Source: Bacteroidota bacterium
GTDB lineage: Bacteria; Bacteroidota; Bacteroidia; Chitinophagales; Chitinophagaceae
Assembly: GCA_018267925.1 (NCBI GenBank)
Contig: JAFDXO010000115.1
Coordinates: 1 to 48,221, forward strand
Direction of reading: 5' to 3'
Length of the DNA stretch: 48,221 nt
Part shown: positions 34,031 through 48,221 of the stretch, piece after piece
Layout of the letters: the number at the start of each line of letters is the position of its first letter
Position numbering within the stretch: the first letter of the stretch is position 1
The notes under the pieces: model-generated
Told to the model about the DNA's origin: nothing
The model's input: the letters and a program-made list of their open reading frames with translations, nothing else
Database searches by the model: none
Made by a program: the position numbers and the translations under genes

Positions 34031-34051
34031 CTCTCTGATTTTTTTTGCAAG

Positions 34052-34059
34052 CAAAGATA
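34052..34059 (-). promoter_or_regulatory. Minus-strand -7 box for the dehydrogenase gene
   Basis: CAAAGATA on the plus strand reads TATCTTTG on the minus strand, an exact TAnnTTTG match. It ends 22 bases before the ATG at 34030. A CACCTTTG at 34067-34074 on the plus strand, one mismatch from the consensus, ends five bases before the hscB ATG and may be its -7 box, giving a near leaderless message. Confidence 0.5.
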
Positions 34060-34078
34060 ATGTACCCACCTTTGCAGC

Positions 34079-34606: not shown

Positions 34607-34613
34607 GGGAAAT

Positions 34614-34697
34614 GCCCAGATGGCGGAATTGGTAGACGCGCTAGACTCAAAATCTGGTTTTCGCAAGGGAGTGCAGGTTCGATTCCTGTTCTGGGCA
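34614..34697 (+). tRNA. tRNA-Leu (anticodon CAA)
   Basis: The acceptor stem is GCCCAGA (34614-34620) with TCTGGGC (34690-34696) and discriminator A34697. GGCGGAATTGGTAGACGC is the class II D-arm. The anticodon stem CTAGA/TCTGG encloses the loop CTCAAAA, giving CAA. The long variable arm and the T-loop GGTTCGATTCC are present. No CCA is encoded. It decodes UUG. It is the last conserved gene before the cassette array. Confidence 0.95.
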
Positions 34698-34700
34698 CTA

Positions 34701-34747
34701 AAAAGGGACAGTCTGTTTTTGATACAACAGACAGTCCCTTTTCTTTT
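34701..34747 (+). terminator. Rho-independent terminator after tRNA-Leu
   Basis: Arms AAAAGGGACAGTCTGTT and AACAGACAGTCCCTTTT pair with one mismatch. The T-rich tail continues to about 34747. Confidence 0.88.
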
Positions 34748-35139
34748 TCCACTAAGTCGTTGATAAATTGGTATGTGTGTGGGCTTCTGTGATACAATGG
34801 GTATTAACATTGCTATTGCCATCTGTTAGAGGCTACACGGAGAGAGGTTGTAGCGTTTATTTTGCCAAATAAAGGTAGAAGCAAAATCGTCATGGAACGG
34901 CTGCTGTTTTTTTTGTTGATGGCTTATCGTCCGTATTTTAATACGAGAGTTGACCTACTACCGCTCGTGACCATAGGGATTAGATTTTTATTTGCTTGCT
35001 TTTCATTTAATCGGCTACACCGTATCGCAATGATATATGTTTTTTGTTTTTAAGTTCGTAATCAAATCTCACCCAAATCATCTTTTTGTCATGATGAGAA
35101 CCAAGCGAAAAGAGGAACAATTTGTGATAAAAAGTGAAT

Positions 35140-35180
35140 TGCGCATTTAGAATATTCATTATCTGCGCATTTTGAATATT
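35140..35180. repeat. 17-bp direct repeat upstream of the first cassette
   Basis: TGCGCATTTAGAATATT (35140-35156) and TGCGCATTTTGAATATT (35164-35180) differ at one base and are 24 bases apart. The repeats lie outside the first cassette, so they belong to the host side. They could be integrase accessory sites, as the direct repeats of known attI sites are, or the operator of an unseen regulator. Confidence 0.65.
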
Positions 35181-35231
35181 TCAAAGGTAGTAAAAATACT
35201 AACTCATTGAAAATGAATAAAGTAAAAAATT

Positions 35232-35260
35232 TTGAAAATTGGTGGGATTTCGTATATTTG
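35232..35260 (+). promoter_or_regulatory. Promoter reading into the cassette array (Pc-like)
   Basis: TTG at 35232-35234 and TATATTTG at 35253-35260 are 18 bases apart. The second box ends three bases before the GTT at 35264, so transcription should start almost exactly at the cassette junction. Any cassette inserted here would be expressed from this promoter, as with the Pc promoter of known integrons. Confidence 0.65.
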
Positions 35261-35272
35261 TGCGTTAGGTGC
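35261..35272 (+). other. First cassette junction (attI-like core site GTTAGGT)
   Basis: TGCGTTAGGTGC contains GTTAGGT (35264-35270), a match to the integron core GTTRRRY. The nine bases GTTAGGTGC are the exact reverse complement of GCACCTAAC at 36832-36840, the end of the same cassette. The sequence to its left lacks the inverted-repeat arm shared by the six attC-like sites, so this is an attI-type or secondary insertion site rather than another attC. Confidence 0.7.
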
Positions 35273-35404
35273 AACCCTACGGACGACCGTGCAGACATTA
35301 ACCGACTGACAGAAAAACGGACTGACCAAGCCCACCCACCACCCGACAAGACAACGATTTAAAAACTTTTTTGTAGAAACTTTTGACTGTTTCAAATCTT
35401 TATC

Positions 35405-35414
35405 GCAATATTGC
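35405..35414. promoter_or_regulatory. Candidate ArsR operator
   Basis: The perfect 10-bp palindrome GCAATATTGC lies 25 bases before the arsR ATG. Its position and its AT-rich palindromic centre suit an ArsR-family binding site for autoregulation. No binding evidence is available. Confidence 0.45.
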
Positions 35415-35439
35415 AATCTGAAAATAAAATAAGACGACA

Positions 35440-35772
35440 ATGGGAGCGACTAAAACAGACCATTTTACAGACAAACAAAACGCCATTGCGACACTTGCAA
35501 AAGCAATCGGACATCCTGCAAGAGTGGCAATCATTGAGTATTTAATGAAAGTGGACACTTGCATTTGTGGCGACATCGTAAACGAATTGCCACTTGCACA
35601 ACCGACAGTTTCGCAACATTTGAAAGAACTCAAAAACGCAGGACTGATAAAAGGAAACATTGAAGGCAATGCCATTTGCTACTGCATTGACGAAAAAGCG
35701 ATTGAAAAACTGCAAAACTATTTCGGCAATATTTCAACCAAACTCACGACCAAGAAAAACAACTGTTGTTAA
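35440..35772 (+). CDS. arsR: ArsR-family arsenic-responsive repressor
   Basis: A 110-residue winged-helix repressor. The helix-turn-helix is PLAQPTVSQHLKELKNAGLIKG, the typical ArsR recognition helix. VDTCICGDIV has Cys41 and Cys43 in the region where ArsR binds arsenite, and the protein ends in NNCC (Cys109, Cys110), possibly adding ligands. Release of arsenite-bound repressor from DNA would switch on the four-gene cassette. A palindrome at 35405 is a likely operator. It is the first gene of cassette 1; the next gene begins 17 bases after its stop. Confidence 0.92.
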   Translation: MGATKTDHFTDKQNAIATLAKAIGHPARVAIIEYLMKVDTCICGDIVNELPLAQPTVSQHLKELKNAGLIKGNIEGNAICYCIDEKAIEKLQNYFGNISTKLTTKKNNCC

Positions 35773-35789
35773 ACTAAAAACGAATAAAA

Positions 35790-36263
35790 ATGAAACTTTC
35801 ACAAGTCAAAACACTTTTGCCGACATTAGACAATGTTGCGTTCAGATTAGAAAACGGAACTTTTGTTCCCGAACATTTTCACGTTACCGAAGTTGGAATG
35901 GTAACAAAAAACTTTATTGATTGTGGCGGAACAATCCGAAACGAAAAGACAGTTAATTTTCAGTTATGGAACGCAGACGACTACGACCATCGTTTGAAAC
36001 CAACGAAGTTGCTACATATCATTGAACTTTCCGAAAAGCAATTAGGCATTGAAGATGCCGAAATTGAAGTAGAATATCAAAGCGACACGATTGGAAAATA
36101 TGCGTTAGCGTTTGACGGAACAAATTTTATTCTGAAAAGCAAAACAACGGCTTGTTTGGCAAGTGATAAATGCGGAATACCGCAAGAAAAACAAAAAATC
36201 AAATTGTCGGAATTGCAAACGGCTCAAACTTCTTGCTGTTCGCCAAATGCGGGTTGTTGCTAA
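35790..36263 (+). CDS. DUF6428 family protein of ars operons
   Basis: A 157-residue soluble protein. MKLSQVKTLLPTLDNVAFRLENGTFVPEHFHVTEVGMVTKNFIDCGG is a pattern I recognise from proteins encoded beside ArsR in Bacteroidota (DUF6428). The sequence has a compact alpha/beta middle and ends in a Cys-rich tail, TSCCSPNAGCC, that could bind arsenite or a metal. Its reaction is not known. It lies 17 bases after arsR and one base before a small membrane protein gene, so it is co-transcribed. The tail supports a role in arsenic handling, perhaps as a chaperone or sensor, but this is inference. Confidence 0.78.
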   Translation: MKLSQVKTLLPTLDNVAFRLENGTFVPEHFHVTEVGMVTKNFIDCGGTIRNEKTVNFQLWNADDYDHRLKPTKLLHIIELSEKQLGIEDAEIEVEYQSDTIGKYALAFDGTNFILKSKTTACLASDKCGIPQEKQKIKLSELQTAQTSCCSPNAGCC

Positions 36264-36264
36264 A

Positions 36265-36390
36265 ATGAAAGAAAAAATAATCAAATACAAGAAACCAATT
36301 ATCATCACAACATCTGTAATTGTGTTGCAACTCATTTTCGGTTTTGACCCGAAGTTTTGTATTATCAATATCATTTGGCTATTCGTTTAG
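36265..36390 (+). CDS. 41-residue membrane peptide of the ars cassette
   Basis: A small frame begins one base after the DUF6428 stop (TAAAATG) and ends three bases before arsC. It encodes a basic N-terminus (MKEKIIKYKKP) and a single hydrophobic helix (IIITTSVIVLQLIFGF), then FDPKFCIINIIWLFV with a Cys. The tight packing between two operon genes and the topology support a real gene. No known arsenite pump is present in this cassette, so a membrane role in arsenic handling is possible. No family is recognised. Confidence 0.6.
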   Translation: MKEKIIKYKKPIIITTSVIVLQLIFGFDPKFCIINIIWLFV

Positions 36391-36393
36391 ACT

Positions 36394-36813
36394 ATGGACA
36401 AGAAAAAAATATTAGTGCTTTGCACAGGAAACAGTTGTAGAAGCCAAATAGCCGAAGGCTACTTACGACACTTCGCAGACAATAAAGCTGACATTTACAG
36501 TGCAGGCGTGGAAACTCACGGAGTAAATCCAAAAGCTATTGCAACAATGCAAGAAGACGGCATTGACATTTCAAATCACACTTCAAACAACATTGACGAA
36601 TATTACGACATTGATTTTGACTTTGTAATTACAGTTTGCGACAACGCAAAAGAACGTTGTCCATTCTTCCCGACCAAAGCAAAAAAGTTTCATCAAAACT
36701 TTCCCGACCCTGCAAAAGCGACAGGAACAGAAGAAGAAATTAAAGAACAGTTTAGACAAGTCAGACAACAAATCAAAGACTATTGCAGACAATTTGTAAC
36801 GGACAACTTGTAA
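36394..36813 (+). CDS. arsC: Arsenate reductase (thioredoxin-linked, LMW-phosphatase type)
   Basis: A 139-residue cytosolic enzyme that reduces arsenate to arsenite. MDKKKILVLCTGNSCRSQIAEGYLRH contains the CX5R phosphate-binding loop, CTGNSCR, of the low-molecular-weight phosphatase fold. VCDNAKERCPFFPTKAKKFHQNFPDPAKATG carries the second and third cysteines used in the disulphide relay in Staphylococcus-type ArsC, and the DP loop. Cys, Arg and Asp residues are all in place and the length is typical. It is the last gene of cassette 1, only 18 bases before the first attC-like site begins at 36832. Arsenite efflux must be encoded elsewhere, since no ArsB or Acr3 gene is in the window. Confidence 0.93.
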   Translation: MDKKKILVLCTGNSCRSQIAEGYLRHFADNKADIYSAGVETHGVNPKAIATMQEDGIDISNHTSNNIDEYYDIDFDFVITVCDNAKERCPFFPTKAKKFHQNFPDPAKATGTEEEIKEQFRQVRQQIKDYCRQFVTDNL

Positions 36814-36831
36814 CACGACAGAAAAAGGGCA

Positions 36832-36967
36832 GCACCTAACAGCGGTTTTGCGTCAGGCGGGGTGACGTGGTAAATTGAACATTTGTGCTTTTTATTAACT
36901 TTGGTGCAAGGTTGAAAGTTTGTGCTTCTAATCCCGCCCGAACGCAAAGCCGCGAACCGTTGTGCGT
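36832..36967 (+). repeat. attC-like site 1
   Basis: The left end is GCACCTAAC (36832-36840). The left arm GCGGTTTTGCGTCAGGCGGG pairs with the right arm CCCGCCCGAACGCAAAGCCGC. The right end is CCGTTGTGCGT with core GTT at 36959-36961. The loop between arms is about 70 bases and shares a conserved block with site 3 (AATTGAACATT). The junction bases GTTGTGCGT recur as their reverse complement at 38233-38241. Confidence 0.9.
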
Positions 36968-37014
36968 CATGCTATCTGACTTGCGGAGAAATGGTTAATT
37001 AATTAAAAAATAAA

Positions 37015-38202
37015 ATGCGGAACAAGCAAAACAAAAAATACCTTTGGTTTATTGTTGGAATTACAATTCTAAATGCAATTGGAATGACAATCGTACTCCC
37101 ACTCTTTCCATTTCTATTGGAAAAATATGTTTCAAAAAATCAAATTGCTACAACAATGAGTGCACTTGTTGCAGTTTTTGCGATTTGTCAATTTTTTGCT
37201 TCACCCGTCTTTGGGGCATTAAGTGACCGATTTGGACGAAAACCAATTCTACTTATAAGCCTTTTAGGGTCTGCAGTGGGCTATTTATTACTTGGTATTG
37301 GAGGGGCACTTTGGGTTCTCTTTTTGGGTAGAATTATTGACGGACTTACCGCAGGAAATATAAGTGCATTATTTGCATACATTACCGACAGAACTGAACC
37401 AGATGAACGAGGAAAATGGTTTGGTTATTTAGGTGGTGCAATAGGAATTGGGTTCATGATTGGTCCTGTAATTGGTGGTATCCTCGGAACAATTTCCATA
37501 ACACTACCTTTTTATGTTACTGCTGCTATTACATCTGTTTCTATTATTTGTATTTTTCTTTTTGTTCCTGAATCACTTTCAGTTGAAAAACGAAGCAAAG
37601 AAATTTCATTAAAAAGCTTAAATACTTTCTTGCATTTTAAGGAAATATTTTCAGTTAAACAAGCAAAAGATTTAATAATAATGGGAGGGTTTTTCTATAT
37701 TGGATTAGGCATCTGGCAGTTTAATGCAAGTATCTTTTTAAAAGATGTTTTTATGTGGGGTCCCTCATTTATAGGTGGCGTTTTTGTATTGGTTGGTATT
37801 TGTGATATATTATCTAGAGTAATTATTTTACCGCAAATGCTTAAAAGATGGAACGAGCAAAAGGTTGGAATTATTGGTTTGTTAGGACTTGTTTTGGGAC
37901 TTGGTTTGTTATTTGTGAGTGCATTTATTTCTTCAGCATTATTTATTATTGCTGCCGTTGCGTGTATTGTGTTGGGAGAAGGATTATTTGACCCTTCCTA
38001 CAACGTAAGGCTTTCTAAATCTGTTGATGAAAGTAAACAAGGATTACTTCAGGGAACTAACCAAAGTCTACAGGCTTTATACCACGTAATAGTTCCAATT
38101 GGAGCTGCCTTTATTTATTCTTATAGTCACGGAGCTGTTTTTGGAATTGCGACATTACTAATGATTGTCGGTCTTTTGCTGTTCATTAAATTACAGGAAT
38201 AA
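37015..38202 (+). CDS. MFS efflux transporter, TetA-like DHA1 family
   Basis: A 395-residue inner-membrane protein with twelve predicted transmembrane helices. The motif A loop between helices 2 and 3 is GALSDRFGRKPILLISLLG, a classical drug/H+ antiporter signature. The second half has a weaker copy near SRVIILPQMLKRWNEQKVG, and motif C-like GXXXGPVIGG is in GIGFMIGPVIGGILG. The family exports small molecules such as tetracycline or other drugs in exchange for protons. Substrate cannot be read. It is the only gene of cassette 2 and starts 54 bases after the cassette junction. It could be expressed from the upstream promoter by read-through. Confidence 0.88.
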   Translation: MRNKQNKKYLWFIVGITILNAIGMTIVLPLFPFLLEKYVSKNQIATTMSALVAVFAICQFFASPVFGALSDRFGRKPILLISLLGSAVGYLLLGIGGALWVLFLGRIIDGLTAGNISALFAYITDRTEPDERGKWFGYLGGAIGIGFMIGPVIGGILGTISITLPFYVTAAITSVSIICIFLFVPESLSVEKRSKEISLKSLNTFLHFKEIFSVKQAKDLIIMGGFFYIGLGIWQFNASIFLKDVFMWGPSFIGGVFVLVGICDILSRVIILPQMLKRWNEQKVGIIGLLGLVLGLGLLFVSAFISSALFIIAAVACIVLGEGLFDPSYNVRLSKSVDESKQGLLQGTNQSLQALYHVIVPIGAAFIYSYSHGAVFGIATLLMIVGLLLFIKLQE

Positions 38203-38232
38203 TATTTATTCAAATTTGCGAAAAAAGCACGA

Positions 38233-38434
38233 ACGCACAACATTAGGTTTGGCATTATTGGGGCTTGACGAATATTGCTTCAACATTTGTTCTTTATTGT
38301 GCTTCAGTTTGGGCTTGACGTTATAAATTTGGCTTATGAATAAAACATCAGCAATATTGCAATTATTGGGCTTCGGTTATGGGCAGACGGAATTCTAATT
38401 CCCCAACAAACGCCAAGCCTTTTTCGTTATCGGT
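38233..38434 (+). repeat. attC-like site 2 (long form)
   Basis: ACGCACAAC (38233-38241) begins the site. Arms AGGTTTGGCATTATTGGGG and CCCCAACAAACGCCAAGCCT pair well. The core GTT is at 38426-38428 in TCGTTATCGGT. At about 200 bp it is 65 bp longer than the others. The loop repeats GGGCTTGACG at 38261-38270 and 38311-38320. The junction bases GTTATCGGT recur, reversed and complemented, at 43886-43894. Confidence 0.85.
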
Positions 38435-38637
38435 CAGTGTAAAAAGACAGCCAACTCACAAATGGCACATTTGGTTTTGCCCGACACACAAGCCAACCCT
38501 TCGCAAAACCAAAAGAGCCTTTTTTTTTGCCAACGCACCGACAAGACTGTTGAAAATTTTCTGATTACTTTTTATCTTACAAAATGAGATACTAAAAATT
38601 ATAAACCTATCTTTGCGACTTGACATCATTTGAACAA
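38435..38637 (+). promoter_or_regulatory. Leader of the type III R-M cassette, with a -7 box
   Basis: A 200-base gene-free leader. TATCTTTG at 38608-38615 matches TAnnTTTG and ends 22 bases before the ATG at 38638, so the restriction-modification cassette probably has its own promoter. No well-spaced TTG box is present. The left part contains an AC-rich stretch with GCAAAACCAAAAGAGCC before a run of T, weakly terminator-like. Confidence 0.5.
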
Positions 38638-38847
38638 ATGAACAGAATAAAAGAAGTGTTGGACGAAAAAGGCATCAAGCAGACTTGGCTTGCCGAGCAA
38701 TTAGGCAAAAGCTACAATATGGTAAATGCTTATGTGCAAAACCGACAACAACCACGAATTGAAGTGCTTTATGAAATCGCTGAAATTCTTGGCGTAAACG
38801 TAAAGGAACTATTGATTGACAACGAAATTAAAAAGAACAAGAAATGA
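38638..38847 (+). CDS. XRE-type helix-turn-helix regulator (controller-like)
   Basis: A 69-residue DNA-binding protein, using the ATG at 38638 (an in-frame TTG at 38620 would add six residues and lie closer to the promoter box). The Cro/CI-type helix-turn-helix is IKQTWLAEQLGKSYNMVNAYVQNRQQPRIEVLYEIAEILGV. Small XRE proteins upstream of restriction-modification genes often act as controller proteins that delay the nuclease relative to the methyltransferase. The stop overlaps the start of the methyltransferase gene (ATGA), showing translational coupling. The target site is not identified. Confidence 0.85.
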   Translation: MNRIKEVLDEKGIKQTWLAEQLGKSYNMVNAYVQNRQQPRIEVLYEIAEILGVNVKELLIDNEIKKNKK

Positions 38848-40871
38848 GCAACGAGCAAAAAATAACAACCGAAATAAAAGTGCCGAATAAAGATTTGGAA
38901 ACTTTGAAAATTCATTTTCCGCATTGCTTTGACAAAGACGGGAATTTTCAATTTGAGAAATTCAAAAACAACCTAACCGAAAAGGAAATCAATTTTTCTA
39001 CCGAGAGTTACGGTTTAGACTGGTTAGGCAAAAGCTACGCAAGACTTTTGGCAAGCGACCCTGCAACAACTTTATTAAAAGCAGACGAAACACACAACGC
39101 AAAGCCCGAAAACAACAACTCCGAAAACTTGCTAATAAAAGGCGACAACCTGGAAGTGTTAAAGCACCTTGCCAACGCCTACTACGAACAAGTAAAAATG
39201 ATTTACATAGACCCACCTTACAACACAGGCAGTGATGGGTTCACATACCAAGACGACAGAAAATTTACAGTAAAGGAACTTCAACAACTTATTGGCGTAG
39301 ATGCAGAAAAAGCAAAACGCATATTAGATTTTACACAAAGTAAAAGTAATAGCCACAGTGCTTGGTTAACATTTATGTATCCTCGTCTTTACATTGCTAA
39401 ACAATTATTGAAGGATGAAGGTGTAATTTATGTTTCAATTGATGACAGTGAAGTATCCCAACTTAAAATGTTGCTAGACGAAATTTTTGGGGAAGAAAAT
39501 TTCAGGGGCATAATAATAAGAGCAACAGGAACTACAACGGGACAAGAAGCACTTAAAATTGGTAGTTCGTATGATTCTTGTCTATGCTACTCAAAGACAG
39601 CAAAATTTCAGTTAAAAGGCATTCCGTTAAAAGGTAAAGACCTAAATAGGTTTAATAATGACGACAATGATGGCAAAGGCAAATACGCACTTTTACAGTT
39701 AAGAAAGACTGGAAATGCAGACCGTAAAGAAGATAGGGAAGGAATGTTCTTTCCGATAACAGCTCCAGATGGTAGTCAAGTATTTCCCATTGGACCTACT
39801 GACTATTTAAGTCGATGGAGAACTGGAAAGGATAAATTTCAAAAATTCTTGGACGAAGGGTTAATAGTTTGGAAAGAAAACGGAGAAGATATAGAAGAAT
39901 TTGACGATGATGAAGACGAAAATGAAGAAGATGAAATCACAGATTACTCATCAGTGACAAATGAGAATGTAGATATTTCAAAATTTAAGTCGAAGTGGAA
40001 ACCTTACGTGAAATACTACTTATCAGAACGGACAAAACAGGTTTCAAACTTGTGGACAGATATTGATGGTAACAAAAAGGGCAGTATCGAACTGAAACTA
40101 CTATTCGAGAAAAAGAAACTATTTGAAAATCCCAAACCGACTGATTTTCTGAAGCGATTAATAACTATTAGCTGTAGTTCAGATGAATTAATCCTTGATT
40201 TTTTTGCTGGTTCAGGAACAACTGCTGATGCTGTATTAAATATGAATTCTGATGATTTAACCAATCGAAAATTCATATTAGTTCAAATTCCTGAATTAAT
40301 TGACCCAAAGAAAAGTAAGACAACTTACACCTATGTTAAGAATGACTTGGGTATTGAAGTGCCTACAATTTTTGATGTAACCAAAGAAAGAGTTATCCGT
40401 GCAGCTAGAAAAATTAAAACTGAAAAAACAGAATATGATGGGGACTTGGGTTTCAAAATTTTTGAAACAACTCCAATTTGGGAAGATTACAATTTTGAAG
40501 CAGAACAGTTTGACAGTTCACAAACGCTGTTTGATGTTGGTAAACTAACAGAAGACGACATCAAAGCCTTACTGACAACTTGGAAAACGTATGATGGCAT
40601 TGCCTTAACACAAGATTTAGAAAGTATTGATTTAAGCGGTTACACCGCTTATTATGGCAATGGCAGATTGTATCTGATGCACAAAGGCTTTACTACTGAC
40701 AGCCTTAAAACATTGTTGGAAAAGATAGACACAGACAAACATTTTGAACCTAAAAGTATCATCGCCTTTGGCTATCACTTGGAGAGCAAGAGTTTACGAG
40801 AGATTTCGGAAAACGTAAAAACTTACAACAACAAGAAAAAAAGCGACATTGACTTTATAACAAGGTATTAA
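38844..40871 (+). CDS. mod: Type III restriction-modification methyltransferase (Mod)
   Basis: A 675-residue DNA adenine-N6 methyltransferase. Catalytic motif DPPYNTG lies at residues 123-129, preceded by the beta strand VKMIYI. The AdoMet motif FFAGSGTT lies later (near residue 450), giving the beta-class order. The region between, about 160-440, is the target recognition domain and holds a very acidic stretch (EEFDDDEDENEEDEITDY). YTYVKNDLGIEVPTIFDVTKERVIRAARKI is the usual Mod C-terminal block. Mod alone methylates one strand of an asymmetric site. It overlaps the regulator gene by four bases and ends two bases before res. Length is typical. Confidence 0.93.
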   Translation: MSNEQKITTEIKVPNKDLETLKIHFPHCFDKDGNFQFEKFKNNLTEKEINFSTESYGLDWLGKSYARLLASDPATTLLKADETHNAKPENNNSENLLIKGDNLEVLKHLANAYYEQVKMIYIDPPYNTGSDGFTYQDDRKFTVKELQQLIGVDAEKAKRILDFTQSKSNSHSAWLTFMYPRLYIAKQLLKDEGVIYVSIDDSEVSQLKMLLDEIFGEENFRGIIIRATGTTTGQEALKIGSSYDSCLCYSKTAKFQLKGIPLKGKDLNRFNNDDNDGKGKYALLQLRKTGNADRKEDREGMFFPITAPDGSQVFPIGPTDYLSRWRTGKDKFQKFLDEGLIVWKENGEDIEEFDDDEDENEEDEITDYSSVTNENVDISKFKSKWKPYVKYYLSERTKQVSNLWTDIDGNKKGSIELKLLFEKKKLFENPKPTDFLKRLITISCSSDELILDFFAGSGTTADAVLNMNSDDLTNRKFILVQIPELIDPKKSKTTYTYVKNDLGIEVPTIFDVTKERVIRAARKIKTEKTEYDGDLGFKIFETTPIWEDYNFEAEQFDSSQTLFDVGKLTEDDIKALLTTWKTYDGIALTQDLESIDLSGYTAYYGNGRLYLMHKGFTTDSLKTLLEKIDTDKHFEPKSIIAFGYHLESKSLREISENVKTYNNKKKSDIDFITRY

Positions 40872-40872
40872 T

Positions 40873-43746
40873 ATGAAGGGATTTAATTTTGAGAAAAACC
40901 TAAATCATCAATCACACGCAGTAGATAGCACTATTGCTGTGTTTGAGAACATTAGCCTTGTTCAGCCCACAGAAGCGGATAAGAACTACATTAACCCTGC
41001 ATTTGACTTTACAACAGAAAGAACATATCCTCAAAACATCAGAGCAGTTCAAGAAGATAATGGAATAAACGAAGACATAAAGCGGAACAGCAACATCATT
41101 GATATAATGATGGAAACGGGAACTGGTAAAACATACACTTATACCAAAACCATTTTTGAACTCAATAAAAACTACGGCATTTTCAAATTCATAGTCGTTG
41201 TTCCAACGCTTTCCATTAAAGCAGGAACAATTGATTTTTTGAAATCGGACAGTAGCCGTGAGCATTTCAAAGAACAATATGGCAAAACACTTCATTTACA
41301 CATTGTAGAAAGTCAGAAAAACAGCAAGAGCAAAAAATCATTTATTCCACCGGCAGTAACCAGTTTTGTAAATGCCGGAACTTTTGAGAAAAACAGCATT
41401 CAGGTTATGATTATCAACGCAGGTATGATTAACTCTGAAACAATGCAAAAGAGTTTTGACAAAGGATTGTTTGACAAATACACCATTCCTTTTGATGCCG
41501 TTGGAGCAACAAAACCTTTTATGATTATTGACGAGCCACACAAATTCGGGCAAGGCAATAAGACTTGGGAGAACATTCAGAAAATGAAGCCCCAATTTAT
41601 TTTGCGTTATGGTGCGACTTTTCAAGGTTATGAAAACTTGATTTACACTTTGACAGCCGTTGATTCATTCAACAGAAATTTAGTAAAAGGCGTAATCGGA
41701 CACATCACTGAATTTAATGCAGGTGAAAACGCAATCGTAAAATTCATTGATTCAGATGGAACAGAAGCCAGTTTTGAATTGATTGAAAATGACAGACGAA
41801 AAACAGTAACAGTTTCTAAAAAGGAAAGTCTGAAAAAGATACATCCTGAAATGTCTGACTTGGGAATTGAAAATTTGAATAAAAGCACGGTTGTTTTAAC
41901 CAACGGTTTAGAAATGAAAAAAGGAGATAAAATCAACCCTTATTCGTATGCTGAAAAGTTGCAGGAAACAATGATTCAAAAGGCTATTAAGCACCATTTT
42001 GAAATTGAAAAACAGCTATTGACAAGAGAAGTGAAGATTAAACCTTTAACGCTTTTCTTCATTGACAATATAGACGAATACCGAAACAAGGACGGATATA
42101 TCCGAAAAACAGTTGAGCAATACATCAAAGCAGAAATTGAAGAATTGCTAAAGACAGAAAAGGATGCTTTTTACAAAGCCTATCTTGAAAAGACATTGCT
42201 TGACCTTTCGGCAACACACGCAGGTTATTTTTCAAAAGACAATACAGAGAAAGACGAAGCCATTGAAAAAGAGATAAACGAAATTTTGCACGACAAGCAA
42301 GCAATGCTTGATTTAGAAAATCCAAGAAGATTTATTTTTTCAAAATGGACGTTGCGTGAAGGTTGGGACAATCCAAACGTATTTCAGATTTGCAAACTCC
42401 GAAGCAGTGGCAGTGAAATTTCAAAACTGCAAGAAGTTGGACGTGGTTTGCGTTTACCAGTGAATGAATATGGCAATCGTGTAAAAGACGAACAGTTTTA
42501 TTTGAACTACTTTGTTGACTTTACCGAAAGCGACTTTGTAGATAAATTGGTTAGTGAAATCAATCAGAAATCGGGAGCTATTTCTCTTGAACAAGTTCCA
42601 GACAAACTTTCTGAGCAAATGATTAAAAAGATTTGCGAGTTATACGAAACAACCGAAGATGAACTTTTGGAAGTTTTGGACACGAACAACGTCATCACAC
42701 GAACAAATTCATTCAAAACAGGCGGCTTTGATTTTATCAAACAAAACTATCCAAGAATATTTGAAGGTGTAAACTCTAACAAGGTTCGCAAAGCAACCGA
42801 CCCGAAAAAGAAAGTTGTAGTAAGAGCAGAGAAATATCAAGAACTTAAAGACCTTTGGGAAAAACTAAATGAGAAAGTAATTCTTGAATATAAGTTTGAC
42901 AACGAAGCCAACTTCAAAACTCTGTTCACAGAGTTTTTGAAAGCACAAAAAGATAATTTCACTTCGGACGGAATAAATGAGAGAATTTCAAAAGTTGAAA
43001 TAAAAGACAATAAAGCAGTTGTAAACGAACCTGAATCAGTTTACAACCGAAAGACCGCAACTATTTCAATAATGAAATACAGCGACTTTTTGAAAGAGCT
43101 TTCAAAGATGCTGAATATAAACATCGCAACATTGCATCAATCAATCCTTGACGCAGAAACAGACATCAATAAATATCTTAACCAAACAACATTGAGAATC
43201 ATCAAACAGAACTTTGACTTTTTCTTAATGACACAAGCATTTGACAAGTATTCTATTGAATACAAAAAGGTTTCAAACAGCATTCATCCAACAAAGCTTA
43301 CAGACGAAAAAGGAAATGTGCTGAAAGAAATTTCTGCTTCTGATGTTGGTGTTTTGTTTTCTGACGAAGATGTTGCAGATTCTTATTTCTTTGAAGAATT
43401 GTATTACGATTCTGACTTAGAGAAATCAAACATAAAGACAGAAGTAAAAGAAGTTATTGTGTTTACCAAAATACCGAAGAACTCAATTAAAATTCCAGTT
43501 GCAGGTGGCAAATCATATTCACCTGACTTTGCCTATGTTTTGAAATTCAAAGACGGAGGGCAAAAACTAAACTTCATTGTTGAAACCAAAGACGTAAACA
43601 GCAAAGACGGACTTCGTGACGAAGAAAAATTCAAAATCAAACACGCTGAAAAATTCTTTGACGGCAAAGTAAAAATTGAGTTCAAGACACAATTCAGCAA
43701 CAACAAAATAGTTGACTTAATAAAAGAACTTTCAGTGGATGAATAA
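40873..43746 (+). CDS. res: Type III restriction endonuclease (Res)
   Basis: A 957-residue ATP-dependent nuclease that acts with Mod. The helicase domain has Walker A ETGTGKTYTYTKTIFEL (GTGKT at residues 83-87), Walker B-like MIIDEPHKFGQGNKTW (DEPH), and motif VI-like LQEVGRGLRLPVNE. SKWTLREGWDNPNVFQIC is the Res motif V region. The C-terminal nuclease region contains SPDFAYVLKFKDGGQKLNFIVETKD, which fits PD-(D/E)XK with PD and ETK. All key motifs are intact. It follows mod by one base, so the two subunits are made together. It is the last gene of cassette 3, with about 140 bases before attC site 3. Confidence 0.92.
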   Translation: MKGFNFEKNLNHQSHAVDSTIAVFENISLVQPTEADKNYINPAFDFTTERTYPQNIRAVQEDNGINEDIKRNSNIIDIMMETGTGKTYTYTKTIFELNKNYGIFKFIVVVPTLSIKAGTIDFLKSDSSREHFKEQYGKTLHLHIVESQKNSKSKKSFIPPAVTSFVNAGTFEKNSIQVMIINAGMINSETMQKSFDKGLFDKYTIPFDAVGATKPFMIIDEPHKFGQGNKTWENIQKMKPQFILRYGATFQGYENLIYTLTAVDSFNRNLVKGVIGHITEFNAGENAIVKFIDSDGTEASFELIENDRRKTVTVSKKESLKKIHPEMSDLGIENLNKSTVVLTNGLEMKKGDKINPYSYAEKLQETMIQKAIKHHFEIEKQLLTREVKIKPLTLFFIDNIDEYRNKDGYIRKTVEQYIKAEIEELLKTEKDAFYKAYLEKTLLDLSATHAGYFSKDNTEKDEAIEKEINEILHDKQAMLDLENPRRFIFSKWTLREGWDNPNVFQICKLRSSGSEISKLQEVGRGLRLPVNEYGNRVKDEQFYLNYFVDFTESDFVDKLVSEINQKSGAISLEQVPDKLSEQMIKKICELYETTEDELLEVLDTNNVITRTNSFKTGGFDFIKQNYPRIFEGVNSNKVRKATDPKKKVVVRAEKYQELKDLWEKLNEKVILEYKFDNEANFKTLFTEFLKAQKDNFTSDGINERISKVEIKDNKAVVNEPESVYNRKTATISIMKYSDFLKELSKMLNINIATLHQSILDAETDINKYLNQTTLRIIKQNFDFFLMTQAFDKYSIEYKKVSNSIHPTKLTDEKGNVLKEISASDVGVLFSDEDVADSYFFEELYYDSDLEKSNIKTEVKEVIVFTKIPKNSIKIPVAGGKSYSPDFAYVLKFKDGGQKLNFIVETKDVNSKDGLRDEEKFKIKHAEKFFDGKVKIEFKTQFSNNKIVDLIKELSVDE

Positions 43747-43885
43747 AGTAACAACAATAAGCCAACGCATTTTGCAAGCACATTGCCAAAGCCGCACAAG
43801 CCAAAGCACAGCCCAAAGCTTTGTCAAAGAGCTTGCAAACCCAACGCACAACCGACTGACAAACAGGACGAAAGAAGAACACCGA

Positions 43886-44022
43886 ACCGATAACAGGCGT
43901 TTGGCTCAATGGCGGGTGACGTGGTTAATTGAACATTCTACCTCGCATCAACTTTTATGGTGTATTGACAGTTTTGTGCTCCGAAATCCGCCACTGCGCC
44001 AAGCGCCAAAACGTTATGTGGC
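43886..44022 (+). repeat. attC-like site 3
   Basis: ACCGATAAC (43886-43894) begins the site. Arms GGCGTTTGGCTCAATGGCGG and CCGCCACTGCGCCAAGCGCC pair with few mismatches. The core GTT is at 44013-44015 (ACGTTATGTGGC). The loop shares about 22 of 23 bases (43915-43937) with site 1 (36861-36883). The junction bases GTTATGTGGC recur, reversed and complemented, at 45266-45275. Confidence 0.9.
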
Positions 44023-44041
44023 ATTTTAAAACAACACCGCA

Positions 44042-44245
44042 ATGAAAGAAGAACTAACAGACAACGAACATTCTGAAATATTAAAAAATGAAGAAGCCGA
44101 TTTATTCGGACGAAAAGCAACTTTCAAAGATTATGTGAACATTGGATTCGATATTGAGGAAGCGAAAAATATGGCGGGACTGAAAAACTACGATTTTTCA
44201 ACGGATGAAGAATTACAGAAATTTATTGACGAAATAATAAAATAA
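44042..44245 (+). CDS. Unknown 67-residue acidic protein (cassette 4, gene 1)
   Basis: A small soluble protein, MKEELTDNEHSEILKNEEAD followed by LFGRKATFKDYVNIGFDIEEAKNMAGLKNYDF. It is rich in Glu, Asp and Lys, predicted helical, with no signal peptide or Cys motif. The segment FGRKATFKDYVN is the most conserved-looking. I recognise no family. It starts 27 bases after the cassette core and ends one base before the next gene, so it belongs to a three-gene operon. It may be a small antitoxin-like or accessory protein, but that is speculation. Confidence 0.6.
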   Translation: MKEELTDNEHSEILKNEEADLFGRKATFKDYVNIGFDIEEAKNMAGLKNYDFSTDEELQKFIDEIIK

Positions 44246-44246
44246 T

Positions 44247-44810
44247 ATGTTTTCAACTAACAAAGAAATAAAAGCAATCAACTTATACTTCAAAGAATTT
44301 GTTTTACAACATAATGATTATTTTTTTGACAAACATTTAGAAAAGACAATCAAAAAAATTGAAAGCGAAACAGAAACAGATTTTAGCGAAAATTGGGAAA
44401 ACCTTATTGCTCTAATGCAGATTATTGAACGAACTTACAACTTAAAAGCAATAATCACTGAAAACAATTATTACAGGTTTGAATTTCACAATGCAGAAAA
44501 TATTCAAGACAAAGGAGCAACAAAGATTGATGCACTTTTTAGTTGTTGTTATCAAACATTGAGAAAGTATTGGAATGAAAATGCACCATATTTCAACAGA
44601 GGCGTTGAACCATTTGACATTAGTGATTTTGACGAAACCGAAGAAGAGTTCAATGACGAAGGTTTTAAAGAAATTGGAACAAAAGAATTTTTAAAAACAA
44701 TTACGACCAACGAATTACTTTCAATGCTTAAAGTAACTAAAAAAGACAATCCGACTAAACTAAAATTTATCAGTTGGTTAGAACAAGAATTAGAAAAAAG
44801 AAAATCATAA
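44247..44810 (+). CDS. Unknown 187-residue protein (cassette 4, gene 2)
   Basis: A soluble, mainly helical protein. Segments include INLYFKEFVLQHNDYFFDKH, KIESETETDFSENWENLIAL, RFEFHNAENIQDKGATKIDALFSCCYQTLRKYW and a highly acidic middle (DISDFDETEEEFNDEGFKEI). The last part, FLKTITTNELLSMLKVTKKDNPTKLKFISWLEQELE, looks like a compact helical domain. No transmembrane region is predicted and I recognise no family. It begins one base after the 67-residue gene and its stop overlaps the start of the GIY-YIG-like gene (TAATG), so the three are translated together. Confidence 0.6.
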   Translation: MFSTNKEIKAINLYFKEFVLQHNDYFFDKHLEKTIKKIESETETDFSENWENLIALMQIIERTYNLKAIITENNYYRFEFHNAENIQDKGATKIDALFSCCYQTLRKYWNENAPYFNRGVEPFDISDFDETEEEFNDEGFKEIGTKEFLKTITTNELLSMLKVTKKDNPTKLKFISWLEQELEKRKS

Positions 44811-45259
44811 TGAAACAATTTGAGTTTGACCGAAATTTCATTGAAGCCAAGTTTTCAGAAGCAGAAACGTTTCTCTTTGACAAGCAGAACGTTTATCAAA
44901 TAAAATATGAAAACTTTGACAAAACAACGTTTGACAAGCTCAATTCCGATTTATTACATAATGTTTCAAATAAATTTATAGTTTATTGCTTGTGGTTGGG
45001 CGACACTCAAAATGATTTGAAACCAAAATATGTTGGACACGCAAAAAACACAATTTCACGACAACGATTAAGGGCACATTTGACGAAGAAAAACAAAGCA
45101 ACAGGTGCACAACTTGACAAAATAACAAAGTATTTAGAAGATAAAAAGTATTTTGGCTTGACATATTTAATCATTGAGCCAAGTTATATGAGAACTTCGC
45201 TTGAAGAATGGTTAATAAACAAAAATATTGACAAACTTGAATGGAATAAAAACAAATAA
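44810..45259 (+). CDS. GIY-YIG-like nuclease-domain protein (cassette 4, gene 3)
   Basis: A 149-residue soluble protein. The start at 44810 (MKQFEFDRNFIEAKFSEAET) is preferred over an upstream in-frame start, since it forms the TAATG overlap with gene 2. GIY-YIG hallmarks are visible: FIVYCLWLGD (residues 56-65) in place of GIY, KPKYVGHAKN (71-80) in place of YIG, then SRQRLRAHLTKK with Arg85 and Arg88, and later RTSLEEWLI with Glu132/Glu133 as the metal-binding glutamate candidate. The spacing is compatible with the fold. It may cut DNA or, if degenerate, only bind it. Its neighbours are unknown. It could be a defence effector or a mobile-element nuclease. Confidence 0.65.
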   Translation: MKQFEFDRNFIEAKFSEAETFLFDKQNVYQIKYENFDKTTFDKLNSDLLHNVSNKFIVYCLWLGDTQNDLKPKYVGHAKNTISRQRLRAHLTKKNKATGAQLDKITKYLEDKKYFGLTYLIIEPSYMRTSLEEWLINKNIDKLEWNKNK

Positions 45260-45265
45260 AAAAAC

Positions 45266-45402
45266 GCCACATAACAAGGTATTGCCAAAAGCGGGGCTGA
45301 AGTGCATATTTAGAAATTGTTACATATATTTGGCTTGAGGTATTTCTATTAGGCTTGGGTACAAAAATCCCCGCCTTCGGCAATACCCAAACCGTTGCCT
45401 GC
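45266..45402 (+). repeat. attC-like site 4
   Basis: GCCACATAAC (45266-45275) begins the site. Arms GGTATTGCCAAAAGCGGGG and CCCCGCCTTCGGCAATACC pair with two mismatches. The core GTT is at 45394-45396 in CCGTTGCCTGC. The left arm and start of the loop share GCGGGGCTGAAGTGCA with site 5. The junction bases GTTGCCTGC recur, reversed and complemented, at 47318-47326. Confidence 0.9.
45325..45332 (+). promoter_or_regulatory. -7 box in the loop of attC-like site 4
   Basis: TATATTTG is an exact TAnnTTTG match. It lies in the loop of site 4, 110 bases before the first gene of cassette 5. No TTG box at the usual spacing is present, so promoter activity is uncertain. Confidence 0.35.
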
Positions 45403-45441
45403 AAGCATAACAGACACCCTAAACATTAAACAGACATTAAA

Positions 45442-45822
45442 ATGGCAGAAATTTTTACAATAGACATTGAGCTAACATCAGAACGACAAAAGCTACTAAA
45501 AATACCTGAACTCATTGAAGTACCGAAAGGTTCTGTTGTTCAATGGAACATTAAGAACTTTGAAGAATTTAGACAGAATTGGCATAGACCATTCGGCAGT
45601 TTTATATTCACTCTTTACTTTGAAAACAAATCGCCATTTAAATGGAAACGGACATTTATACAGCTTTTTGACCCACATTTTGGACCTTACTATTCAAGAA
45701 TAATTCGCTTGGCAGAAGATGTAGCAGACAAAAAGGGAGATTATAAGTATGGTGTAAGTGTTTTTGATGCTGAACAAAATGAGCCTGTTTATGATGAAGA
45801 CCCTATTTTAAGAGTGTTTTAA
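45442..45822 (+). CDS. Unknown 126-residue protein (cassette 5, gene 1)
   Basis: A small soluble protein predicted to be mostly beta strands. Segments are IFTIDIELTSERQKLLKIPELIEVPKGSVVQWNIKN, FGSFIFTLYFENKSPFKWKRTFIQLFDP and KGDYKYGVSVFDAEQNEPVYDEDPILRVF. The order of strands, the PKGSVVQW turn and the final YDEDPILRV suggest an Ig- or cupredoxin-like fold without the metal ligands. I do not recognise a named family. It lies eight bases before the patatin-like gene and is surely co-transcribed. Such a partner could regulate the phospholipase or sense a trigger, but this is inference. Confidence 0.65.
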   Translation: MAEIFTIDIELTSERQKLLKIPELIEVPKGSVVQWNIKNFEEFRQNWHRPFGSFIFTLYFENKSPFKWKRTFIQLFDPHFGPYYSRIIRLAEDVADKKGDYKYGVSVFDAEQNEPVYDEDPILRVF

Positions 45823-45830
45823 GATTAGCT

Positions 45831-47306
45831 ATGGAAATACAAATATTTTCAATAAAGAAAGAACTATACAAGCACATTGAAAAAGCTTGTAACGACTTAA
45901 ATAATATTCAAACAGACAAGGAGTTTACGTTTAAAACACCACCAGAACGACTTAAAGACAAATTTTATTTAGAACATCGAGATGAATATCACTCTGACAC
46001 AGTTTTTGAGTGGTTAAAAAACTACCGACAACAAGAAAAAAAGGAAAATCAATTAATCATTTTAGTTGTTGATGGATATTTAAGGTCAAGCCGACTTGGT
46101 AATTTATTTGGGACTGTAAGTGCAACAGACGGTTTGGCAGTGTTTACGGTTGTAGATTTTAGCCAATTTGTAAATGATATTGTTCGTTTTTGTAGATACT
46201 ATTTAGTAAGATATGCTTTAAGTTTTTTAGAGCCTTCAATAAAATCACACGATGACCCAAGCAGAAAAGAATGTGTGTTTCACAAAAAAATGAATAAAAT
46301 AGAATTGCGAGATTCTCTTTATTCGGGACACATTTGTCAAACTTGTTATGACCAATTAAGACCAAAATTAAATACAGAAATAAGCAATTCAATAAAGCAA
46401 ATGCTTTTATTGGTTTCAAATCAACACCCTTACTCAATCGTTATTAAAGGTGGTGGTGTTAAAGGACTTGCATTTGCAGGTGCATTATTAGAACTTGAAA
46501 ACTATTTCTCATTTGACACATTTGCAGGAACATCAGCAGGTGCAATAACAGCAGTATTGATGGGTGCAGGTTACAAACCAAACGAATTACTTGAAATCCT
46601 TGATAAAAAAGATTTTAATGAGTTCAAGGATGCTTCCTTCCTAAAAGGAGTTTTAAACTTTATTAGAACAAGGGGGTTTTATCCAGGCGATGAAATAGAA
46701 AAATGGATTAACCAATTAATTAGAACCAAACTACCAGAACTTTTAAACGAAGTCACGATGGAAGAGTTGCCAACTCATACTATTGTATATTCATCAAGAG
46801 TAAAAGATGGGACTTTGATTTTTGATTCCAAAAAACAACGAAAAGAAACTCACGTTGCTTTTGCAACACGATGTTCTATGTCAATTCCTTACTTTTTTAG
46901 TCCAAAACTTGTTGATGGCGTTAGGGTTTACGATGGCGGTGCAAGAAACAATTTTCCTTTAAAAGTATTTATTGACACTTATCCTAATAAACCTGTAATT
47001 GGACTTTATCTTGTCAATGGAACAAAAAAAGGTGGACTTGTAATTGGCGAATTAGCAAATATCGCTATGGACGGAGAAGAAGTCCCTATTGTCCAAAACA
47101 ACCTTGACAAAGTAGTTGTAATAGACCCAAGACCTATCAAAACAACTGATTTCAATTTGACCAAAAAGAAAAAAGAATTTTTAGTCTTATCAGGCAGACT
47201 TGGAGCATTGAAATTTATTGAACGAAATTACCCTGACATTGACTTTGACAGAGAAAGAATACAAACTATAAGCCGACAAATTGACGAACTTAAAAAAGAG
47301 ATATAA
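45831..47306 (+). CDS. Patatin-like phospholipase with an unusual N-terminal domain
   Basis: A 491-residue soluble protein. Residues 200-470 form a patatin domain: oxyanion loop GGGVKG (207-212), nucleophile elbow GTSAG with Ser235, and DGGARNN with catalytic Asp368. The dyad is complete, so it should hydrolyse acyl chains of membrane lipids. Residues 1-200 are not like known patatin N-termini. They have a beta segment (LIILVVDGYLRSSRLGNLFG), a helical part and a Cys/His cluster, Cys148-X2-His151 with Cys169-X2-Cys172, that could bind zinc. Patatins are effectors in some anti-phage systems such as CBASS CapV, but no cyclase is nearby. It is paired with an unknown 126-residue protein in cassette 5. 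A defence role is a hypothesis. Confidence 0.8.
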   Translation: MEIQIFSIKKELYKHIEKACNDLNNIQTDKEFTFKTPPERLKDKFYLEHRDEYHSDTVFEWLKNYRQQEKKENQLIILVVDGYLRSSRLGNLFGTVSATDGLAVFTVVDFSQFVNDIVRFCRYYLVRYALSFLEPSIKSHDDPSRKECVFHKKMNKIELRDSLYSGHICQTCYDQLRPKLNTEISNSIKQMLLLVSNQHPYSIVIKGGGVKGLAFAGALLELENYFSFDTFAGTSAGAITAVLMGAGYKPNELLEILDKKDFNEFKDASFLKGVLNFIRTRGFYPGDEIEKWINQLIRTKLPELLNEVTMEELPTHTIVYSSRVKDGTLIFDSKKQRKETHVAFATRCSMSIPYFFSPKLVDGVRVYDGGARNNFPLKVFIDTYPNKPVIGLYLVNGTKKGGLVIGELANIAMDGEEVPIVQNNLDKVVVIDPRPIKTTDFNLTKKKKEFLVLSGRLGALKFIERNYPDIDFDRERIQTISRQIDELKKEI

Positions 47307-47317
47307 CAAAAATGCCA

Positions 47318-47456
47318 GCAGGCAACAAGCAGTTTTGCAATAGCGGGGCTGAAGTGCAAAATTGAACTTGTGTGCTTCTATCAACTTTTGTACATTAGCC
47401 GAACGGAAGTGCTTCGATTGCCCCGCCATCGCAAAGCTGCCAAACCGTTATATGCC
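47318..47456 (+). repeat. attC-like site 5
   Basis: GCAGGCAAC (47318-47326) begins the site. Arms GCAGTTTTGCAATAGCGGGGC and GCCCCGCCATCGCAAAGCTGC pair with few mismatches. The core GTT is at 47447-47449 in CCGTTATATGCC. The loop contains AATTGAAC and two copies of GTGCTTC. The junction bases GTTATATGCC recur, reversed and complemented, at 47970-47979. Confidence 0.9.
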
Positions 47457-47497
47457 ATTGCCGTTCTCCGATTGAACAGTAGTGCATAATTTGAACA

Positions 47498-47938
47498 AGA
47501 AAAAGAAAATATTTTTCCACCACACAAATTTGTTAATTGGTTAATTCGGTATAATCATTTTGGTAGTTGTGGTTTTCAACCTTCTTTTCTTCCTCCTTTG
47601 AATACTTTACGGCTGAATAATCTAACCAACTTTCTCTTTCGTCATTGAAAACTTCCTGTGCTTCATCTTCACTTTCAATTTCATCTTCTTCCATTATTTG
47701 AGTTATATCCCGAAGACCGTTCATACCTGCATAGTTTTCATATTCTTCACAAGCCATTTCGTATGCTTGCTGTTCGGCATCTTCAAAATCTCTTGCCTCG
47801 ATTACGAGAAAGTTGTTTGCTCCGCCAAAACCACCAGCTAATCCGTAGCCGATGATAAATAAATTGTCTAATTTGTTTTCCATTTTTTTATTTATTTATT
47901 GTTTAATTATTCCTACGCTAAAAATATTTTCTTTTTCT
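47498..47938. repeat. 19-bp inverted repeat flanking the cassette 6 gene
   Basis: AGAAAAAGAAAATATTTTT at 47498-47516 and its exact reverse complement AAAAATATTTTCTTTTTCT at 47920-47938 enclose the minus-strand gene. The sequence is AT-rich and of low complexity, but a perfect 19-base match in this arrangement is unlikely by chance. It may be a remnant of an inversion or a transcription signal on each side. Confidence 0.7.
47533..47883 (-). CDS. Unknown acidic 116-residue protein (cassette 6)
   Basis: A small soluble protein on the minus strand, opposite to all other cassette genes. It starts MENKLDNLFIIGYGLAGGFGGANNFLVIEARDFEDAEQQAYEMACEEYENYAGMNGLRDI and continues with an extremely acidic helix (MEEDEIESEDEAQEVFNDERESWLDY). 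The GYGLAGGFGGANN loop and the following EARDFEDAEQQAYEMACEEYE resemble small proteins often found in phages and other mobile elements. The function is not known. It is the only gene of the shortest complete cassette. Its promoter must lie in the cassette at 47884-47970, where TATTTTTA on the minus strand is one mismatch from TAnnTTTG. Confidence 0.65.
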   Translation of the reverse strand: MENKLDNLFIIGYGLAGGFGGANNFLVIEARDFEDAEQQAYEMACEEYENYAGMNGLRDITQIMEEDEIESEDEAQEVFNDERESWLDYSAVKYSKEEEKKVENHNYQNDYTELTN

Positions 47939-47969
47939 TTCTCTCAGATTGAACTTTGTTGGAAGCAAC

Positions 47970-48107
47970 GGCATATAACAAGCACATTGCCAAAAGAGGC
48001 GGTGTGGTGATTAATTGAACTGGATTGCTTCGTATCATCATTTGTGCTTTATTGAACATTTGTGCTTCGTATTCGCCTCCTTCGGCAATCTGCAAACCGT
48101 TGTAAGC
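47970..48107 (+). repeat. attC-like site 6
   Basis: GGCATATAAC (47970-47979) begins the site. Arms GCACATTGCCAAAAGAGGCG and CGCCTCCTTCGGCAATCTGC pair with few mismatches. The core GTT is at 48099-48101 in CCGTTGTAAGC. The loop has ATTGAAC twice and TGCTTCG twice. If the rule holds, the seventh cassette should end with about GCTTACAAC beyond the window. Confidence 0.88.
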
Positions 48108-48123
48108 AATTTTTCATCAAACT

Positions 48124-48221
48124 ATGTCACAAAAAGAAACAATCGAGACAAATCCAAAAAAGAGAATCTATCAAATTGATTTATTTAGATTTTTAGCAGC
48201 CCTTTCAGTTGTTTTTTATCA
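48124..48221 (+). CDS. Acyltransferase 3 family membrane protein, 5' part only
   Basis: The frame begins ATG at 48124, 24 bases after the cassette core, and is cut by the window edge. The visible 32 residues are MSQKETIETNPKKRIYQIDLF followed by RFLAALSVVFY, with IDLFRFLAALSVV typical of the first transmembrane segment of acyltransferase-3 (O-acyltransferase) proteins. Such enzymes move acyl groups onto surface sugars or other acceptors. It is the first gene of cassette 7. The rest of the gene and its end site are not visible. Confidence 0.7.
   Translation, partial: MSQKETIETNPKKRIYQIDLFRFLAALSVVFY

Follow-up and report, generated by a model that had tools for sequence, protein, structure and literature searches.

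Chromosomal integrons and superintegrons of the Vibrio type are the described systems closest to the cassette array reported here. The R' box of IntI-type integrons has the consensus GTTRRRY, and clusters of attC sites without an integrase are termed CALIN elements (clusters of attC sites lacking integron-integrases). As far as the accessible portions of the following papers go, the I2 helix is the innovation that lets integrases use single-stranded attC sites (PMC7790495) and the defining feature of IntI (PMC9668308), in which it contacts an extrahelical base (PMC3053210); integron cassettes generally carry one open reading frame (ORF) (PMC8618304), and integrons appear rare in Bacteroidetes (PMC9024848). 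Conservation of the insertion is incomplete in the 'Integron-like' subgroup of simple tyrosine recombinases, yet the insertion is called essential for integron function, and the accessible text of that paper ties no cassette arrays to the members without it (PMC8138268). Our literature search, with subscription papers and preprints outside its reach, found no paper on I2-less integrases with cassette arrays. Here we analysed a window of 48,221 nt (the whole stretch, positions 1 to 48,221 of contig JAFDXO010000115.1 in assembly GCA_018267925.1), which is likely a piece of a Bacteroidota chromosome. With a probability of roughly 0.87, its 3' part is an integron-type array that owes its assembly and shuffling to a tyrosine recombinase without I2, whose gene lies on another contig of the same genome. 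Unlike the Vibrio-type systems (IntI structure PDB 2a3v), this one has no I2 insertion, no one-sided bulges in its sites, an R box of 9-10 bp, and cassettes of up to 11.2 kb holding whole restriction-modification operons. The system works like an integron, two tested features set it apart from IntI integrons, and there is a fair chance that it arose separately. The parts of the window array are as follows (C, G and L numbers designate contigs, genomes and loci, respectively).

35056 to 35161, minus strand: 5' remnant of an integrase gene of the I2-less type, about 34 codons, with 91% identity to the intact copy on contig C24 of the same genome
35162 to 35263, plus strand: attI-like site; the same flank stands ahead of other first cassettes on C24 and C59, and a more diverged version does so in the relative G004
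35230 to 35260, plus strand: predicted cassette promoter within attI (TTTTG at 35230-35234, 18 nt, TATATTTG at 35253-35260)
35264 to 36840, plus strand: cassette 1, with an ArsR-type regulator, a DUF6428 protein and a low-molecular-weight phosphatase/arsenate-reductase-like protein
36838 to 36961, plus strand: attC-like site s1
36959 to 38241, plus strand: cassette 2, with an MFS transporter
38239 to 38428, plus strand: attC-like site s2 of the long class, unlisted by both covariance models (R1 and R2), 95% identical to a stretch of G003
38426 to 43894, plus strand: cassette 3, with a helix-turn-helix protein and type III restriction-modification mod and res genes
43892 to 44015, plus strand: attC-like site s3
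44013 to 45275, plus strand: cassette 4, with three small ORFs without Pfam or NCBIfam match
45273 to 45396, plus strand: attC-like site s4
45394 to 47326, plus strand: cassette 5, with an ORF of unknown function and a patatin-like phospholipase
47324 to 47449, plus strand: attC-like site s5
47447 to 47979, plus strand: cassette 6, with a single ORF (47533-47883) on the opposite strand
47977 to 48101, plus strand: attC-like site s6
48099 to 48221, plus strand: cassette 7, partial at the window end; the last 125 bases are identical to the start of contig C96, where the array seems to go on

The original prediction, made from the letters of the window, had described an integron-like array reaching from 35264 to the window end. 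Its integron-like character is borne out by the attI-like site, the attC-like sites, the rule obeyed by the cassette ends and the breaks at (C)GTT. The start at 35264 was placed well, lying behind the attI-like site with its integrase-gene remnant, and the end at 48221 was not, since the array seems, from the overlapping bases, to continue on C96.

All six complete cassettes begin, at the places first described, with GTT plus 6-7 bases complementary to their own 3' end. The agreement extends over 9, 9, 9, 10, 9 and 10 bases in cassettes 1-6, respectively, and over 3-5 bases with the end of any other cassette (6 x 6 table), and adjacent cassettes have differing ends. Complementarity of each cassette to its own end, with differing neighbours, is the expected trace of a circle having been inserted through a cut beside the G of GTT. 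For a genome-wide test, sites were sought with a first covariance model made from five sites (R1; the six-site alignment was distorted by the long s2, which was excluded) and a second made from 101 sites (R2). In the window and 23 further stretches of the genome, 62 of the 68 listed sites were usable, AAC and GTT having been found, and 37 of the 39 cassettes between consecutive model-found sites obey the rule; of the two that do not, one is the pair in the window across s2, a site absent from the model list. When partners were swapped, matches of at least 7 bases occurred in 72 of 1482 pairings. The rule also holds in relatives, for 10 of 12 cassettes in one set and 16 of 26 in another (40 of 46 sites usable), where the ten misses were not inspected singly and intervening missed sites are likely. 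Within one site, R' and R'' agree over at least 7 bases in 4 of 62 sites only. Moreover, complementarity often picks up again for 2-3 bases past one or two mismatches, so that the R box exceeds 9 bp. As for the R' box, GTTRRRY fits 1 of 84 sites and GTTRNNNGYNA fits 69 of 84; four IntI-linked sites deviate from GTTRRRY likewise, and the consensus is thus non-discriminating in this phylum. These results bear on the idea that the repeats are immobile hairpins, such as terminators or REP-like elements, between ordinary operons. Fold-back structures do lie between genes, and 124 of 129 cassette ORFs run in the array direction (hand-summed), as that idea would have it. However, the cassette rule already contradicts it, own-cassette complementarity, the breaks at GTT and the integrase linkage described below being incompatible with immobile hairpins, and we rate its probability as negligible.

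The breakpoint comparisons were made across loci and across species, not across sister strains. A cassette beginning with GTTAGCTGTT occurs behind attI on C59 and behind an attC-like site on C176; 206 of 208 bases agree from GTT onwards, the likeness does not reach further back, and the shared copy may be a duplication or a strain mixture. A cassette on C151 is 81% identical over 1.16 kb to one on C1 of G001, the likeness starting at the C before GTT and the flanks being unrelated. The type III restriction-modification cassette of the window has an 81% relative in G017 that is confined within the cassette bounds and has other R boxes; there it is the second cassette behind a different integrase of the same family and lies between different neighbours. 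Furthermore, one attI flank is present in three copies in the source genome ahead of three different first cassettes, and a fourth copy is found in G004. The original prediction had named breaks away from GTT, or a block moving only as one unit, as observations that would speak against it. Breaks elsewhere were looked for in the two cassette comparisons and at the four attI flanks and were not found, and the relocated cassette in G017 shows that the block does not move only as a whole.

The attI flank leads to the integrase. Contig C24 holds a complete 363-aa tyrosine recombinase gene, divergent to a cassette that starts with GTTGTCTGC and ends with GCAGACAAC, with attI between the gene and this first cassette. 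In the window, the gene start and the flank up to the cassette (35056-35274) are 90.9% identical to the corresponding 219 bases on C24 (L012, 2641-2423); the remainder of the gene does not adjoin the remnant, whose start codon and frame were assigned by eye. The third copy of the flank stands ahead of a third first cassette on C59, and in G004 the orthologous locus beside the same tRNA-Leu has the attI flank (78%) and a fourth first cassette. Another integrase of the I2-less family (42% identical) lies upstream of a co-directional cassette on C79, and both orientations, divergent as on C24 and co-directional as on C79, recur in relatives. Several attI copies are present per genome, mostly with a 5' piece of the integrase gene or a broken one (window 35056-35263; L081 on C59; L075, L076 and L077 in G004). 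The motif TAnnTTTG, a Bacteroidota promoter motif, occurs close to GTT in 7 of the 18 flanks of first cassettes inspected, and attI-proximal cassettes would be expressed from the predicted promoter overlapping attI. Arrays that sit, like that of the window, at an attI with a broken integrase gene would be served in trans.

The window array without a complete integrase of its own resembles a CALIN, and it might be thought that these arrays are leftovers of that type, once moved by some other recombinase, now decaying and without a working integrase. The remnant is indeed all that the window has of an integrase, and 33 of 99 site-bearing genomes of the phylum survey below have neither integrase at the limits used. 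Different from a CALIN, however, the genome has a complete integrase with the same attI and a cassette side by side on C24, from a family that is linked to arrays. Decay would also blur R boxes, which match over 9-10 bases in the 37 rule-obeying cassettes, and the 99%-identical cassette in two contexts of one assembly is a sign of recent movement or of strain difference. We therefore consider decaying leftovers improbable.

The integrases linked to attC-like sites are, by their sequences, without the I2 insertion that defines IntI. The spacing from the KDR to the HxLRH motif is 60-65 aa in them, and canonical IntIs have 102-103 aa (in this measurement, one IntI locus of ten was unreadable); their matches to TIGR02249 break off near 182 and resume near 238-243, below the cut-off. 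The best NCBIfam model for the C24 integrase is NF040815, 'site-specific tyrosine recombinase/integron integrase', with 197.7 of the 220 bits needed, i.e. under the cut-off. In contrast to the XerA/XerC-like recombinases described by that model, most members here have an extra N-terminal domain and lie beside attI and arrays. All 25 attC-linked integrases fall in a single clade of 70 rows (support 95/98), and the new family may belong to the insertion-less members of the 'Integron-like' subgroup, as far as the accessible text describes it (PMC8138268). The N-terminal domain had no match among PDB sequences (best E 0.34), and fold searches gave weak likenesses only; from these, a relation to HARP or DUF5710 is a lead and not a result. 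A family member of 534 aa in G037 (L183, 242-1843) apparently has three copies of the extra domain. A plasmid search with the integrase returned 342 records, all below 60% identity, the best named ones being Chryseobacterium plasmids at 38-39%.

The sites themselves differ from bulged attC sites. The inverted repeats covary, with 93% of cells paired across the 101 sites and 425 two-sided changes versus 128 in shuffles and 31-68 when slid, in an alignment that was fitted to the structure, which favours these counts. Folding of single sites with RNAfold, which the original prediction had proposed, gave unremarkable z-scores of -2.1 to +1.3, and hence the case for the structure rests on covariation. 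Two length classes exist, 122-127 nt (71 of 84 sites) and 186-193 nt (13 of 84), the latter with a longer loop and with s2 as a member. The arms are equal in 85 of 101 sites. In 84 sites they have 21 + 21 nt, and positions 2-20 are Watson-Crick pairs in 93-100% except at three positions, namely, on the top strand, 5 (T.G in 43), 11 (A.C in 57) and 14 (A.C in 80). An A is present at position 11 of the cassette 5' end in 83 of 84 sites and mostly faces a top-strand C. In contrast, in four IntI-linked sites of sister classes a single arm carries three bulged bases, near positions 7, 11 and 15. An A.C on the top strand becomes a T.G on the bottom strand, so that the bottom strand pairs there, and the predicted stability is higher for the bottom strand in 71 of 84 sites versus 22 of 73 control windows.

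From this a mechanism can be proposed. The bottom strand of an attC-like site would fold into a hairpin in which the GTT/AAC ends form the R box of 9-10 bp. Cleavage by the integrase would fall beside the G of GTT, where the boundaries are observed, and the enzyme would place the circular cassette into attI or into another attC. Lacking the I2 helix, the reader of extrahelical bulges in IntI, it would instead read the mismatches at three fixed positions that depart from Watson-Crick pairing in arms that are otherwise equal, and the same code of A.C on top and T.G on the bottom at positions 11 and 14 would make the bottom strand the better folder. We infer that the absence of I2 goes together with the absence of the bulge, and this is the central point of our interpretation.

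In 59 relatives, 17 of 32 integrase loci (35 rows minus three that were fragments or had several stops) have a site within about 10 kb versus 1.5 expected for randomly scattered sites; the site counts in the relatives and in the phylum survey are lower bounds obtained with stricter filters and capped scoring, and the expectation uses these capped counts. Among the named hosts are Flavobacterium enshiense, F. aciduliphilum, Arundinibacter roseus, Aquiflexum, Algibacter onchidii and Zunongwangia mangrovi. Sites (E ≤ 1e-5) occur in 99 of the 198 genomes surveyed across the phylum, and the new integrase (E ≤ 1e-45) in 60 of these 99 versus 9 of the 99 others (p 9e-15), whereas IntI over the cut-off is present in 21 of 99 and 36 of 99, respectively. 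Within the class of the window, the new integrase is found in 29 of the 38 site-bearing genomes and in 3 of the 11 that have no sites (p 0.0046; hand-counted lists), and IntI in 0 of 38 and 1 of 11. Outside Bacteroidota, sites were found at 0 of 24 recombinase loci of named organisms (R2) and in 0 of 16 genomes with related recombinases.

The presence of IntI in the phylum raises the alternative that a canonical IntI makes the arrays and was missed in the assembly or has since been lost, the I2-less integrase being a bystander. Arrays break assemblies, and an IntI gene could fall in a gap among the 196 contigs; IntI over the cut-off occurs in 57 of 198 phylum genomes, almost all of them from other classes than that of the window, and in 15 genomes both integrases accompany the new site type. 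On the other hand, the source genome is 100% complete, and no IntI over the cut-off was found in it or in 34 relatives with sites; G052, the only relative with IntI, has no such site, and a hand-made scan found no canonical attC beside this IntI. At E ≤ 1e-3, sites avoid IntI loci (0 of 10) and occur at 7 of 10 new-integrase loci, three of which were chosen after sites had been noticed nearby, and a scan of the ten IntI loci for the cassette rule gave pairs in few. Together with the location of attI, which separates the I2-less gene from the first cassette, these results make a hidden IntI very improbable.

Several observations weigh against the assignment of the arrays to the I2-less integrase. 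No R1 site is within reach of 15 of the 32 integrase loci in relatives; sites were found at 9 of 80 named loci (R1, E ≤ 0.01) and, with R2, at 20 of 87, and the loci without any numbered 78 of 87 and 67 of 87 in the wider sets tested, although many site-less loci lie at contig ends and the site models derive from one lineage. The 33 site-bearing genomes with neither integrase possibly carry divergent or truncated integrases or decayed arrays, and six of the 99 have IntI only. Several attC-linked integrases of about 275-330 aa have no extra N-terminal domain. Six sites near canonical-looking positions give weak matches beside IntI (L203, L201, L204; E 0.013-0.095), which indicates that the two site kinds are related in layout. 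In addition, excision, integration and the cassette circle are deduced from sequence comparison.

The likeness of layout leads to the question of origin. Function of the integron type might have a single origin, the new integrase being an IntI that lost I2 while bulges later became mismatches. Both site kinds share GTT/AAC ends, the order of size, the asymmetry of left and right spacers and three landmarks. In the tree with a Xer outgroup, however, IntI forms a separate clade (100/99), and I2-less recombinases from other phyla lie between IntI and the new clade (88/80, 96/94); this tree has only 3 IntI rows, the filter having kept 2 of 10 new IntI loci. The tree favours separate uptake of the integron function and the likeness of the sites speaks for some common past, and we hold a single origin possible and rather doubtful; this alternative concerns the origin and not the integron-like nature of the system. 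We lean slightly towards the view that Bacteroidota have a second kind of integron, in which an I2-less, Xer-like lineage took up the capture of folded cassettes separately from IntI, with mismatch or wobble landmarks in equal-armed hairpins in place of bulges, an A.C/T.G strand code, and entire defence operons moved as single cassettes throughout the phylum. An I2-less family beside rule-obeying arrays would uncouple integron function from I2 and would make the avoidance of the second strand exchange testable. It would also explain the apparent rarity of integrons in Bacteroidetes, as searches keyed to IntI and bulged attC would bypass such sites, which half of the 198 phylum genomes hold. 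Thus, integrons probably have a second, overlooked form without the supposedly essential part of the integrase.

The window belongs to a super-array whose cassette sites number about 90 across the genome. R1 gave 100 matches at E ≤ 1 (best 150 of 836 first-look candidates scored) and R2 gave 89 attC-like sites at E ≤ 1e-3 (best 150 of 1523 scored), which are lower bounds in which a few of the weakest matches may be false. The sites are spread over many short contigs, often with a site at the contig end. Rule-obeying cassettes (n = 37) have a median length of 1443 bp, the shortest being 529 bp, and eight exceed 3 kb. The largest, of 11,197 bp, comprises ten ORFs, among them genes for type I restriction, methyltransferase and specificity, and has a 10-base end match, and a type IIG system is present in a 5.5-kb cassette on C79. 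The claim that four of the six complete window cassettes carry genes for defence, resistance or transport holds by family name only (ArsR with low-molecular-weight phosphatase, MFS, type III restriction-modification, patatin). Judged by their gene content, the arrays, rich in restriction-modification systems, look like a library of defence genes.

The cargo scan took in 122 of the 129 cassette ORFs. Two of the three ORFs of cassette 4 were scanned with PADLOC and gave no match, and the patatin-like phospholipase of cassette 5 has a weak likeness to effectors of CBASS (cyclic-oligonucleotide-based anti-phage signalling systems). An Rfam scan of 34000-48221 matched a tRNA alone. By family name, the cargo on the array contigs L055-L074 includes many methyltransferases, GmrSD, DUF1016, CAAX proteases and two proteins of the beta-lactamase family, and there is one match to the streptomycin adenylyltransferase family. 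In G017, the cassette that comes first after the integrase (L080, 1835-1995) has a length of about 164 bp, which would not accommodate an ordinary gene. Several restriction-modification cassettes share a similar leader hairpin (AAATGGCACATTTGGTTTTGC...GCAAAACCAAAAGAGCC-like) ahead of their genes, at 38460-38523 in the window, about 4060-4120 in L011, 3136-3345 in L065 and from 2389 in L080.

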